The notes below the pieces were generated by a model. That model saw only the letters and a list, made by a program, of their open reading frames with translations. It ran no database searches and was not told the origin of the DNA. Position numbers and translations under genes: made by a program. Shown here piece by piece: positions 28,311 to 34,901 of a stretch of DNA of 64,000 bases (positions are counted from its first letter, which is position 1; each line of letters starts with the position of its first letter). Source of the stretch: Nocardioides jejuensis (GTDB lineage: Bacteria > Actinomycetota > Actinomycetes > Propionibacteriales > Nocardioidaceae); assembly GCF_004337475.1 (NCBI RefSeq), contig NZ_SJZJ01000004.1, positions 1 to 64,000 on the forward strand. Reading direction: 5' to 3'.

Positions 28311-29756
28311 TCAGGCCGAGGGCCGGCGCACCCGGCGCCGGCCGGACGGCCGGACGGCATCGAGCTCGTCGAGGAAACCGGTCGCCCAGCGGTCGACGTC
28401 GTGCTCGGCCACGGTCTTGCGCATCGCCTTCATCCGCCGGGTCAGCTCCTTCGGGTCGGCGTTGGCGGCCTCGACGATGGCGGCCTTCATGCCGTTGATG
28501 TCATAGGGGTTGACCAGCCACGCCTGGCTGAGCTCGTGTGCGGCGCCGGCGAACTCCGACAGCACCAGGGCGCCGTCGTTGTCGTAGCGGCAGGCGACGT
28601 ACTCCTTGCAGACGAGGTTCATGCCGTCGCGGTACGGCGTGACGACCATGATGTCGGCGGCCCGGTAGAGCGCCGCCATCTCCTCGCGCGGGTAGGAGGA
28701 GTGCAGGTAGGAGATCGCCGGACGCCCGATCTGCCCGAGGTCGCCGTTGACCCGGCCCACGAGCATGTCGATCTCGTCGCGCATCTTGCGGTACTCGTCG
28801 ACGCGCTCGCGCGAGGGCGTGGCGACCTGGACGAAGACGGTGTCCTCGACGTCGAAGGTGCCGTCGGCGACCAGCTCGGCGTACGCGCGAAGGCGGGGGT
28901 AGATGCCCTTGGTGTAGTCGAGGCGGTCGACGCCCAGCAGGACCCGCTTGGGGTTGCCGAGCGCCGCGCGGATCGCTTCCGCACGGCGGGTGACGTCGGG
29001 GGAGCGGGCCAGGTCCTCGAAGTCGGCGGCGTCGATCGAGATCGGGTACGCCGCGGCGCGTACCTGGCGGCCGTCGGGCAGGGTCACGAGGTCGCGGTGT
29101 GTCTTGTGGCCGACGCGCTGGCGGACGAGGCGCACGAAGTTCTGCGCGCCGCCGGGGAGGTGGAAGCCGACGATGTCGGCGCCGAGCAGGCCCTCGAGCA
29201 CCGCCCGCCGCCACGGCAGCTGGGAGAAGAGCTCGGCCGGCGGGAACGGGATGTGCAGGAAGAAGCCGATCCGCAGGTCCGGCCGGAGCTCGCGGAGCAG
29301 CTGCGGCACGAGCTGGAGCTGGTAGTCGTGGACCCAGACCATGGCGCCGGGCGCGGCCACCTCGGCGGCGCGCTCGGCGAAGCGCTGGTTGACCCGCTTG
29401 TAGGACTCCCACCACTCACGCTTGAACAGCGGCTTGGCCACGACGTCGTGGTAGAGCGGCCAGAGCGTGGCGTTGGAGAAGCCTTCGTAGAACTCCTCGA
29501 CCTCCCGCGCGCTGAGCGGCACCGGTACGAGCTGCATGCCGTCCTCGACGAACGGAGCGAGGTCGTCGCTCTCCTCGGAGGTGCCGCCGGTCCAGCCGAT
29601 CCAGGCACCGTCGTGGACCCGCATGACGGGCTCGAGCGCAGAGACGAGGCCTCCGGGCGAACGACGCCAGCTGGACGTCCCGTCGGGCTCGACGACACGG
29701 TCGACAGGGAGCCGGTTGGCGACGATGACCAGGTCGGCGGATCCGGAGGCGGTCAT
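28311..29756 (-). CDS. otsA: Trehalose-6-phosphate synthase OtsA
   Basis: 481 residues, GT20 glycosyltransferase that joins NDP-glucose and glucose-6-phosphate. N-terminal VIVANRLPVD, the WVHDYQLQLVP segment, the RLDYTKGI loop and the C-terminal VTPYRDGMNLVCKEYVA are diagnostic. The ATG at 29756 is preferred over GTG at 29762 because AGGG is better spaced for it. Its partner otsB lies at 32265 on the opposite strand, with a nucleotide-signalling pair and two small genes between. Confidence 0.94.
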   Translation of the reverse strand: MTASGSADLVIVANRLPVDRVVEPDGTSSWRRSPGGLVSALEPVMRVHDGAWIGWTGGTSEESDDLAPFVEDGMQLVPVPLSAREVEEFYEGFSNATLWPLYHDVVAKPLFKREWWESYKRVNQRFAERAAEVAAPGAMVWVHDYQLQLVPQLLRELRPDLRIGFFLHIPFPPAELFSQLPWRRAVLEGLLGADIVGFHLPGGAQNFVRLVRQRVGHKTHRDLVTLPDGRQVRAAAYPISIDAADFEDLARSPDVTRRAEAIRAALGNPKRVLLGVDRLDYTKGIYPRLRAYAELVADGTFDVEDTVFVQVATPSRERVDEYRKMRDEIDMLVGRVNGDLGQIGRPAISYLHSSYPREEMAALYRAADIMVVTPYRDGMNLVCKEYVACRYDNDGALVLSEFAGAAHELSQAWLVNPYDINGMKAAIVEAANADPKELTRRMKAMRKTVAEHDVDRWATGFLDELDAVRPSGRRRVRRPSA

Positions 29757-29777
29757 GTCCACGACCCTAGGCCATGC

Positions 29778-32217: not shown

Positions 32218-32264
32218 GTCCCGCGGCCGGCCGCGGCGGCGAGGCCCCGTGGTTGAGTAGAGGC

Positions 32265-33107
32265 ATGCGCTTCACCTCACCCGACGCCATGCAGCGCTAC
32301 GCCGCGCTGGCCCGGGTTGCTGCGCAGTCGGTCGTCGGGCTGGACTTCGACGGCACGCTCGCGCCGATCGTGGACGACCCCGAGAAGGCCCGGATCCATC
32401 CGCGCGGCCCGGGCGTCCTGCTCGACCTTGCCGCCCAGGTGCGGGGGATCGCGATCGTCACCGGCAGGCCGGCACGTCAGGTGGTCGCGCTCGGAGCACT
32501 GGACGACCTCGGCACGTCCTTCTCGGACCAGGGGCGCGAGCTCCAGGTCTTCGGCCAGTACGGCAACGAACGATGGAGCTCGGCGGACCGACGGGTCCTC
32601 GGGCCGCGTCCGCCGCACGGCCTGGCGTCGTTCCTCGGCGACCTGCCGCGGATCCTTCGGCGCTGCGACGCCGCCGACGCGTACGTCGAGGACAAGGGTC
32701 TCGCGGTGGCCGTCCACACCCGACGCCTCGCGGCGCCCGACGCGGCGTTCCAGCGGCTGCTGCCGGAGCTGGCCATCGCCGCCGAACGACACGGCATGAA
32801 GGTCGAGCCGGGTCGCCAGGTGATCGAGGTCCGCGCGCCCGGTGCCGACAAGGGCGACGTCGTCCAGAAGCTCGCACACGACCTCGGTGCGACGGGCTTC
32901 TGCTTCGTGGGCGACGACCTCGGCGACCTGGATGCCTTCCACGCCGTCGCGGAGCTGCGGGAGGACGGTCTGGCGACGCTGCTGGTCTGCTCGGCCTCCG
33001 ACGAGGAGAGCGCCCTCGTGCCGCTCAGCGACGTCGTGGTGGCCGGCCCGGGCGGCGTACTGGACTTCCTGTCGCGGCTCGCGACCGATGCTGCCGCGAG
33101 TGCCTGA
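32265..33107 (+). CDS. otsB: Trehalose-6-phosphate phosphatase OtsB
   Basis: 280 residues, HAD-family phosphatase releasing trehalose from trehalose-6-phosphate. The DFDGTLAPIVDDP nucleophile motif, IAIVTGRPARQV, and FVGDDLGDLDAF (acidic motif IV) are present. ATG at 32265 is chosen; an in-frame TTG 12 nt upstream is less likely. It completes the OtsAB pathway with the divergent otsA 2.5 kb away. Confidence 0.93.
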   Translation: MRFTSPDAMQRYAALARVAAQSVVGLDFDGTLAPIVDDPEKARIHPRGPGVLLDLAAQVRGIAIVTGRPARQVVALGALDDLGTSFSDQGRELQVFGQYGNERWSSADRRVLGPRPPHGLASFLGDLPRILRRCDAADAYVEDKGLAVAVHTRRLAAPDAAFQRLLPELAIAAERHGMKVEPGRQVIEVRAPGADKGDVVQKLAHDLGATGFCFVGDDLGDLDAFHAVAELREDGLATLLVCSASDEESALVPLSDVVVAGPGGVLDFLSRLATDAAASA

Positions 33108-33182: not shown

Positions 33183-33190
33183 GGAGCCTG

Positions 33191-33317
33191 CTCATCGAGA
33201 GGGACTGAGGGAACGGCCCGACGAAGTCCCGGCAACCGCCACGAACCCCCTGCTTCGGCAGTCGTGGAAACGGTGCTAATTCCGGCCCGCGGCGAAAGAC
33301 GGCGTGGGGAAGATGAG
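33191..33317 (+). ncRNA. SAM riboswitch (SAM-I/S-box class)
   Basis: The conserved S-box core is readable in order: P1 5' strand CTCATC with GAGAGGGA, then GAGGGAACGGCCCGACGAAG, TCCCGGCAACC, a P3 stem capped by CTGCTTCGGCAG, GGTGCTAATTCC, a GCGGCGAAAGACGGC hairpin, and the P1 3' strand GATGAG at 33312-33317. It lies immediately before the ribosome-binding site of a threonine-synthase-like gene, so control is probably translational. S-adenosylmethionine sensing ties the downstream genes to methionine or sulfur supply. Confidence 0.93.
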
Positions 33318-33330
33318 AGGGAGGTTCCTC

Positions 33331-34596
33331 ATGAGCGTTGTAGAGACTGCCGGTCAGGTCCTGCGAGACGGCGCGTTCGGTCACGCCACCGCCCTGTCCT
33401 GCCGTGAGTGCGGCCACCAGGTCGCCCTCGGCCCGTTCTACGCCTGTCCGGAGTGCTTCGGTCCGCTGGAGATCTCGTACGACTTCCCCGCGGTCACGCG
33501 CGAGGAGATCGAGGCCGGTCCGGCCAACATCTGGCGCTACAAGGCGCTGCTCCCGGTGCCCTCCGACATCGAGCTGAGCCCCAACATGGAGCCCGGCTTC
33601 ACCCGTCTGCTGAAGGCGCACAACCTCGGTCGTGAGCTCGGCATCGACAACCTCTGGGTGAAGGACGACTCGACCAACCCCACCAACTCCTTCAAGGACC
33701 GCGTCGTCGCCTGCGCCCTCTCGGCCGCGACGGAGCTGCACGCGAAGGTCTTCGCCTGCCCCTCGACGGGCAACCTGGCGAACGCCGTCGCTGCCGCCGG
33801 CGCCCGCGCGGGCATCAAGACGATGGTCTTCATCCCGGCCAACCTGGAGAAGCCCAAGCAGGTCAACTCCGCGATCTACACGGACTCGCTGGTGGCCGTC
33901 AACGGCAACTACGACGACGTCAACAAGCTGGCTTCCGAGATCGCGGGCGAGGAGGAGGGCTGGGCGTTCGTCAACGTCAACGTCCGTCCCTACTACGCCG
34001 AGGGATCCAAGACGCTCGGCTACGAGATCGCCGAGCAGCTCGGCTGGCGCCTGCCCGACCAGGTCGTCATCCCGGTGGCGTCCGGCTCGCAGCTGACCAA
34101 GGTCCACAAGGCGTTCCAGGAGCTGATCAAGCTCGGCCTCGTCGAGGACAAGAAGTACAAGATCTACGGTGCCCAGGCCACGGGCTGCGGCCCGGTCGCC
34201 ACGGCGTTCAAGGCCGGCGTCGACGCGATCCGCCCGGTCAAGCCGGACACGATTGCCAAGTCGCTTGCCATCGGCAACCCCGCCGACGGCATCTACGTCC
34301 TCGACATCTGCCGCGAGACCGGCGGTGCGGTCGAGGAGGTCACGGACGACGAGATCCGTGACGGCATCGTCCTGCTGGCGCGCACCGAGGGCATCTTCAC
34401 GGAGACGGCCGGTGGCACCACCACCGCCGTCCTGAAGAAGCTCGTCGAGACCGGCCAGCTCGACACCTCGCTCGAGACCGTCTTCATCAACACCGGTCAC
34501 GGCCTCAAGACCCTCGACGCCATTGCCGACAAGGTGGGCGCCGCGGCGACCATCGACCCGTCGTACGACGCCTTCAAGGCCTCCGGCCTCATCTGA
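33331..34596 (+). CDS. thrC: Threonine-synthase-like PLP enzyme under SAM riboswitch
   Basis: 421 residues, fold-type II PLP enzyme. The N-terminus has a zinc-ribbon CRECG ... CPEC (residues about 24-45). The PLP lysine is in NPTNSFKDRV and the phosphate loop is PSTGNLANAVAAAG. It is longer than the usual 350-360-residue ThrC of actinobacterial hom-thrC-thrB operons, and here no hom or thrB is adjacent. It would act on O-phosphohomoserine, giving threonine, or homocysteine if a sulfur donor replaces water. The SAM riboswitch and the sulfur-carrier gene 26 bp downstream favour the second. ATG at 33331 follows AGGGAGG. Confidence 0.85.
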   Translation: MSVVETAGQVLRDGAFGHATALSCRECGHQVALGPFYACPECFGPLEISYDFPAVTREEIEAGPANIWRYKALLPVPSDIELSPNMEPGFTRLLKAHNLGRELGIDNLWVKDDSTNPTNSFKDRVVACALSAATELHAKVFACPSTGNLANAVAAAGARAGIKTMVFIPANLEKPKQVNSAIYTDSLVAVNGNYDDVNKLASEIAGEEEGWAFVNVNVRPYYAEGSKTLGYEIAEQLGWRLPDQVVIPVASGSQLTKVHKAFQELIKLGLVEDKKYKIYGAQATGCGPVATAFKAGVDAIRPVKPDTIAKSLAIGNPADGIYVLDICRETGGAVEEVTDDEIRDGIVLLARTEGIFTETAGGTTTAVLKKLVETGQLDTSLETVFINTGHGLKTLDAIADKVGAAATIDPSYDAFKASGLI

Positions 34597-34622
34597 TCCA
34601 GTCTGATCCAGGAGCAACTGCT

Positions 34623-34901
34623 GTGAGCGTTTCCGTCCGTATCCCCACCATCCTGCGCACCTACACGGGCGGCGCGTCCGAGGTCACGGCCGAGGGTGCG
34701 ACCCTCGCCGAGGTGCTCGACAACCTCGAGGCCCAGTACACCGGCATCAAGGACCGCATCCTCGACAGCGCGGGCGAGCTGCGTCGCTTCGTCAACGTGT
34801 ACGTCGGCAACGAGGACGTCCGCTTCCTCGAGAGCCTGGCCACGGCCACCCCGGCCGGCACCCAGATCTCGGTCATCCCTGCCGTCGCCGGCGGCTGCTG
34901 A
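34623..34901 (+). CDS. CysO/MoaD-like sulfur carrier with Gly-Gly-Cys tail
   Basis: 92 residues, ubiquitin-like ThiS/MoaD fold closest by eye to mycobacterial CysO (VRIPTILRTYTGG, FVNVYVGNEDVRFLE, IPAVAGG). Such proteins carry sulfur as a C-terminal thiocarboxylate on Gly-Gly. Here one extra Cys follows the Gly-Gly, so a protease (a JAMM/Mec+-type enzyme in related systems) would have to trim it before activation. No such protease or adenylyltransferase is in this window. It follows the riboswitch-controlled PLP enzyme by 26 bp and is likely its sulfur donor. Confidence 0.88.
   Translation: MSVSVRIPTILRTYTGGASEVTAEGATLAEVLDNLEAQYTGIKDRILDSAGELRRFVNVYVGNEDVRFLESLATATPAGTQISVIPAVAGGC

Follow-up and report, generated by a model that had tools for sequence, protein, structure and literature searches.

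A candidate MetM/MetO operon for homocysteine synthesis behind a SAM riboswitch in Nocardioides jejuensis

In Nocardioides jejuensis we find an operon, preceded by a SAM riboswitch, that most probably (with a rough probability of 0.9) gives the organism the MetM/MetO route to homocysteine, with feedback control by SAM. The route is already in print for Streptomyces (2024), and the locus described here is a well-supported new example of it, of low novelty; what we add is a genome-scale comparative test of the published route across 295 actinomycete genomes. The original prediction, made from a 64,000-nucleotide stretch of N. jejuensis DNA (the window), had proposed that the enzyme of this operon makes homocysteine rather than threonine, an assignment that the separate ThrC operon, the complementarity with MetX and MetA and the linkage to a SAM riboswitch now support at the level of sequence comparison. 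The Streptomyces precedent that it had mentioned proved to be correct, being MetM of Hasebe et al. 2024 (Appl Environ Microbiol 90:e01247-24), to which passages of PMC12172450 refer.

Our literature search found no paper treating homocysteine, O-phosphohomoserine, thiocarboxylate and sulfur carrier together, and PMC12172450 was the only match since 2024 that mentions MetM. The route goes unmentioned in the matched passages of the GapMind paper (PMC7311316) and in those of a 2026 review (PMC13257386), in which 'MetM' and 'Hasebe' have 0 occurrences.

The operon and its leader

As can be seen from Table 1, the operon comprises metM and metO on the forward strand. The predicted S-box riboswitch upstream of it was confirmed at full length by RF00162, and no second copy was found in the N. 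jejuensis genome.

Table 1. Features of the metM-metO locus and its upstream surroundings (positions in the window).
Feature	Position	Strand	Basis and remarks
Glycosyltransferase family 20 gene (otsA-like)	28311-29762	-	upstream of the metM operon
Trehalose-phosphatase gene (otsB-like)	32253-33107	+	about 2.5 kb from the otsA-like gene, other genes between
SAM-I (S-box) riboswitch aptamer	33189..33319	+	RF00162, 74.7 bits vs gathering 44.4, model positions 1-108 of 108
Helix P1, 5' strand	33189..33196	+	cmscan alignment
Helix P1, 3' strand	33312..33319	+	cmscan alignment; its last two bases lie within the putative ribosome-binding site
Putative Shine-Dalgarno AGGGAGG	33318..33324	+	sequence; 6 nt 5' of ATG, overlaps P1 end
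metM, predicted PLP-dependent homocysteine synthase, threonine-synthase paralogue	33331..34596	+	421 aa from ATG, N-terminal CxxC pairs
Cys24, Cys27, Cys39, Cys42 (CxxC pairs 24/27 and 39/42)	33400..33456	+	in 130/130 MetM; absent from own ThrC
PLP-lysine motif NPTNSFKDR (residues 116-124, Lys122)	33676..33702	+	sequence and family alignment
Cys286 of MetM	34186..34188	+	C in 130/130 MetM, Ala in own ThrC
metO, predicted sulfur carrier, ThiS/MoaD fold	34623..34901	+	92 aa, ThiS PF02597 E 1e-13, C-terminus PAVAGGC

The riboswitch probably acts at the level of translation, judging from the overlap of the Shine-Dalgarno sequence with the end of P1 and from the count of 0 terminator-like sites between 33060 and 35100 (mean of 0.9 in shuffled sequences). 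RNA folding indicates that an alternative pairing is possible, as part of P1 (33191-33195) is complementary to the start-codon region of metM (33331-33335). In the free minimum-energy fold (-65.7) the start codon pairs with the 5' strand of P1, and a fold in which P1 is forced is close in energy (-64.2). If used, the pairing of the start codon with P1 would imply an unusual switch logic, opposite to that expected.

The 421-residue threonine-synthase paralogue with NPTNSFKDR that had been predicted was borne out by the open reading frame, by a match to PALP (PF00291, E 2.2e-68) and by the closest PDB chains, which are threonine synthases (163 bits). MetM scores 256.5 bits against the thrC model TIGR00260, above its cut-off of 167.1, and 10/10 other MetM proteins pass it too (11/11 tested in all); the model thus does not separate MetM from ThrC, and genome annotation will probably label MetM proteins threonine synthases. 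Against the cysteate synthase model TIGR03844 the score is 66.7 bits, below the cut-off of 324.9.

We analysed conservation in a set of 130 MetM proteins made up of the window's own, those of the best 80 of 213 loci, 29 from a class survey and 20 chosen across families; the set is partly redundant, with one genome (G207) present twice (L129 and L140), one strain represented by both L045 and L046, and perhaps further duplicate species. Identity to MetM is 81-90% among the best 80 of 213 relatives, nearly all of which belong to Nocardioides, Marmoricola or Pimelobacter, and 149 MetM proteins of other surveyed genomes, among the matches listed, are 61-90% identical. Invariant over the 130 proteins are the four N-terminal cysteines, whose two CxxC pairs we take to be a zinc ribbon, together with Lys122, Arg219, Ser226, Ser251, Gly252 and Cys286, the last of which has a possible role in sulfur transfer. 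The Asn of NPTN, in contrast, is not general: position 119 holds N in 103 of the 130 proteins and H in the other 27, where the organism's own ThrC has G.

The second gene was confirmed as the expected CysO/MoaD-like carrier ending in Gly-Gly-Cys. In 116 of the 130 loci a MetO-like gene lies 0-289 bases downstream of metM in the same orientation. The operon arrangement is not a matter of chance, because the carrier adjoins MetM in these 116 loci and MetM is immediately preceded by the riboswitch in 128/128 genomes with both places listed. The tail itself varies: it is GG in 69 of the 116 linked carriers, GGC in 38, GGA in 3, GGSR in 2 and GGS, GGCA and GGAR in one each, and the remaining carrier (L021) is uninformative because a contig end cuts the gene. 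By these counts PAVAGG is the usual end, with the extra Cys as a variant, and the Gly-Gly-Cys tail failed as a family trait. We rejected both it and NPTN as markers of the family, since tails are mostly GG and residue 119 is also H. MetO is 60% identical to CysO of the same genome, and the two are thus probably paralogues that arose by duplication.

No carrier gene was found near MetM in 14/130 loci (L037, L058, L069, L072, L077, L080, L081, L088, L091, L092, L094, L136, L137 and L139), even by a profile search with filters off; they include loci of Nocardioides luteus and N. albus. By subset, these are 11 of the best 80 relatives, 0/29 of the class-survey loci and 3/20 of those chosen across families. 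The wider surroundings (7.6 to 19.9 kb) in six genomes, namely 3 of the 14 plus 3 chosen later that share a family with one of these, held no carrier either. A neighbouring MetO is, therefore, not a universal feature. The sulfur donor at carrier-less loci may be CysO, and these loci raise a testable question as to which protein supplies the sulfur.

Pathway genes in the genome and across actinomycetes

We searched the N. jejuensis genome (3.25 Mb, 99.97% complete) for the remaining genes of the pathway. A second, canonical hom-thrC-thrB locus, for which the original prediction had proposed a search, is present elsewhere in the genome (C1), with homoserine dehydrogenase and GHMP kinase domains. 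Its ThrC, of 355 residues, carries NPTGSFKDR, aligns with gaps where MetM has the four cysteines and shares 33% identity with MetM. The metM gene thus lies outside the hom-thrC-thrB context and is not the only thrC-type gene of the genome. No metX was found in the genome at E<=1e-40 (the best TIGR01392 score, over a short stretch, was 25.5 bits), nor any metA, and the scan of two proteins for metY gave none at the model's cut-off. The search for metB went the other way: a cystathionine gamma-synthase (MetB) type enzyme is present with 664 bits against a cut-off of 513, and a second relative of it lies below every cut-off shown. The MetB-type enzyme might offer another route to homocysteine by transsulfuration; neither MetX nor MetA, which would supply its usual substrate, was found, and reverse transsulfuration is a possible role for it and its relative.

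The genome also encodes MetH (1716 bits) and, at a separate locus (C6), a mec-cysO-cysM operon whose CysO ends in GGAR. There is one Prok-JAB (Mec) match in the genome and one ThiF match above the cut-off, in the same protein as a rhodanese domain, as in MoeZR; a second ThiF fragment scores 22 bits. The ThiS-family carriers number four: CysO, MetO, one ending in AGG and one ending in QGG, which presumably sits among thiamine genes.

For the comparative test we searched a single set of 295 actinomycete genomes, that of N. jejuensis among them, for MetM (E<=1e-60), MetX (E<=1e-40), MetA and RF00162. E-values were used for MetX because no genome reaches the curated 500-bit cut-off; the matches listed go up to 449 bits, and none of 14 control genomes reaches it. 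MetM was found in 183/295 and MetX in 197/295 genomes, with both in 88, MetM without MetX in 95, MetX without MetM in 109 and neither in 3, against about 37 with neither expected under independence (Fisher p 1.5e-21, a value that ignores shared ancestry). Without four weak MetX matches (G106, G016, G041 and G167) the four counts become 85, 98, 108 and 4. MetA is present in 2 of the 3 genomes with neither MetM nor MetX, which leaves one (G009) without any of the three. Two genomes of the same genus as G009 have MetM, and it may represent an assembly gap, an auxotroph or another route. At the level of genera, in a hand tally that counts a gene as present if any sampled member has it, MetM occurs in 65 and MetX in 72 of 102 genera, and a single genus (g47) lacks both (1/102 vs 10.9 expected, p 2.5e-6). 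MetM complements MetX and MetA across the 295 genomes. It is the only one of the three found in 95 of them, and the 88 genomes with both MetM and MetX indicate that it is often not the sole route.

The linkage to the riboswitch extends over the same survey, which for RF00162 was run with stricter filters: RF00162 is present in 182/183 genomes with MetM vs 10/112 of the others. In 128/128 genomes for which both places are among the matches listed, the riboswitch ends 12-115 bases upstream of where the MetM match starts; these lists hold 150 of the 183 MetM places, of which 22 have no listed riboswitch. Within the genus of N. jejuensis, MetM was found in 15 of the 16 sampled genomes; 8 of these 15 show a MetX match as well, a weak one in a single case, and the genome lacking MetM (G070) has MetX but not the SAM riboswitch. 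A prototroph relying on MetM may, through annotation of the enzyme as threonine synthase, look methionine-auxotrophic on paper, and a simple rule for annotation is to look for a second ThrC-like gene behind a SAM riboswitch.

Proposed mechanism and alternatives

What we observe is the set of genes present, the riboswitch, the order of the operon, the conservation of the family and the complementarity with MetX and MetA; the reaction steps that follow are proposed. Hom and ThrB would provide O-phosphohomoserine, which MetM would bind on its PLP with elimination of phosphate. The single ThiF-rhodanese (MoeZ-type) enzyme would thiocarboxylate MetO at its C-terminal Gly-Gly once the encoded C-terminal Cys had been removed; the Mec/JAMM peptidase is a candidate for this trimming, the GGC tail being similar to CysO-cysteine, the adduct cleaved by Mec in M. 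tuberculosis. In MetM the thiocarboxylate would attack the gamma carbon, in contrast to ThrC, where water adds at the beta carbon. The product would then be freed as homocysteine and methylated by MetH, and binding of SAM to the riboswitch would lower the expression of MetM and MetO. We offer more tentatively, as a possibility that goes beyond these steps, that in this lineage the synthesis of homocysteine is tied to the CysO cysteine pathway, with MetO a pro-carrier whose GGC end imitates CysO-cysteine, the same Mec and MoeZ-type enzyme maturing MetO, and CysO feeding MetM in lineages without linked metO. If so, one carrier would supply both sulfur amino acids in those lineages.

Several observations count against synthesis of homocysteine by MetM and MetO, namely the 88/295 genomes with both MetM and MetX, the 14/130 carrier-less loci, the MetB-type enzyme, the relative in Microcystis and the acceptance of MetM by the thrC model. 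The last two, and the threonine synthases among solved structures closest to it, would suit an ordinary second threonine synthase that acts on O-phosphohomoserine beside an accidental carrier; passages of PMC12172450 give threonine synthase and deaminase as the reported activities of the Microcystis relative. However, N. jejuensis already has a canonical ThrC in hom-thrC-thrB, the gene in question stands behind a SAM riboswitch and is complementary to MetX, and its invariant residues are specific to the MetM family. We consider an ordinary threonine synthase very improbable and reject it on account of the separate hom-thrC-thrB operon and the SAM riboswitch. That the genome has its own mec-cysO-cysM operon for cysteine led us also to reject the view that MetM is a cysteine synthase (or an enzyme like cysteate synthase) using O-phosphoserine and a carrier as CysM/CysO does. 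The SAM riboswitch and the complementarity with homoserine acyltransferases speak against it as well, which makes it extremely improbable despite the kinship of the carrier to CysO and the fact that cysteate synthase is a paralogue of MetM.

A variant that overlaps with the MetM/MetO route holds that MetM makes homocysteine with free sulfide or with CysO, MetO being optional. The loci without a linked MetO, the six genomes with none in the wider surroundings and the identity between CysO and MetO would all fit such an arrangement. On the other hand, the carrier has been kept beside MetM in the great majority of loci, and Hasebe, Adachi, Maruyama and Hamano (2024) reportedly identified thiocarboxylated MetO as the sulfur donor, so that we regard an optional MetO as unlikely. 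The same authors are said to have found the MetM route in other bacteria and archaea too.

Comparison with known systems

Passages of PMC12172450 credit Hasebe et al. 2024 with the identification of MetM, a homocysteine synthase, in Streptomyces, and state that the enzyme of S. albulus converts O-phosphohomoserine into homocysteine and prevents methionine auxotrophy, that its gene has a SAM riboswitch upstream, that a metO gene is known, and that homologues of MetM occur in cyanobacteria. Compared by these descriptions, the N. jejuensis locus is alike in having a ThrC-like enzyme behind a SAM riboswitch and a metO carrier, and differs in belonging to Nocardioidaceae and in having a carrier that ends in GGC. 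S. coelicolor, of the same genus as S. albulus, is said in a passage of PMC11356490 to lack metA and metXY, and neither MetX nor MetA was found in N. jejuensis at the thresholds used.

The ThrC of Microcystis aeruginosa PCC7806, again in passages of PMC12172450, is 51.6% identical to S. albulus MetM and has a metO-like neighbour gene, and is reported to be mainly a threonine synthase and deaminase that is not fully MetM-like in the cell; unlike metM of N. jejuensis, its gene has no upstream SAM riboswitch. With ThrC in general, MetM shares the fold family, the PLP-lysine motif and the expected substrate, O-phosphohomoserine, and differs from it in the CxxC pairs, N or H for G at residue 119, Arg219, Ser251-Gly252, Cys286 and the riboswitch.

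In Mycobacterium tuberculosis, as passages of PMC3227635 describe, CysM makes cysteine from O-phosphoserine and a CysO thiocarboxylate produced by MoeZR, and Mec hydrolyses the CysO-cysteine adduct. Unlike CysM, MetM is ThrC-like and does not share an operon with mec and cysO, which N. jejuensis carries separately together with cysM. The predicted MetM/MetO system nevertheless resembles CysM/CysO in combining a PLP enzyme, a phospho-amino-acid and a carrier thiocarboxylate, and in a MetO closely related to the organism's own CysO.
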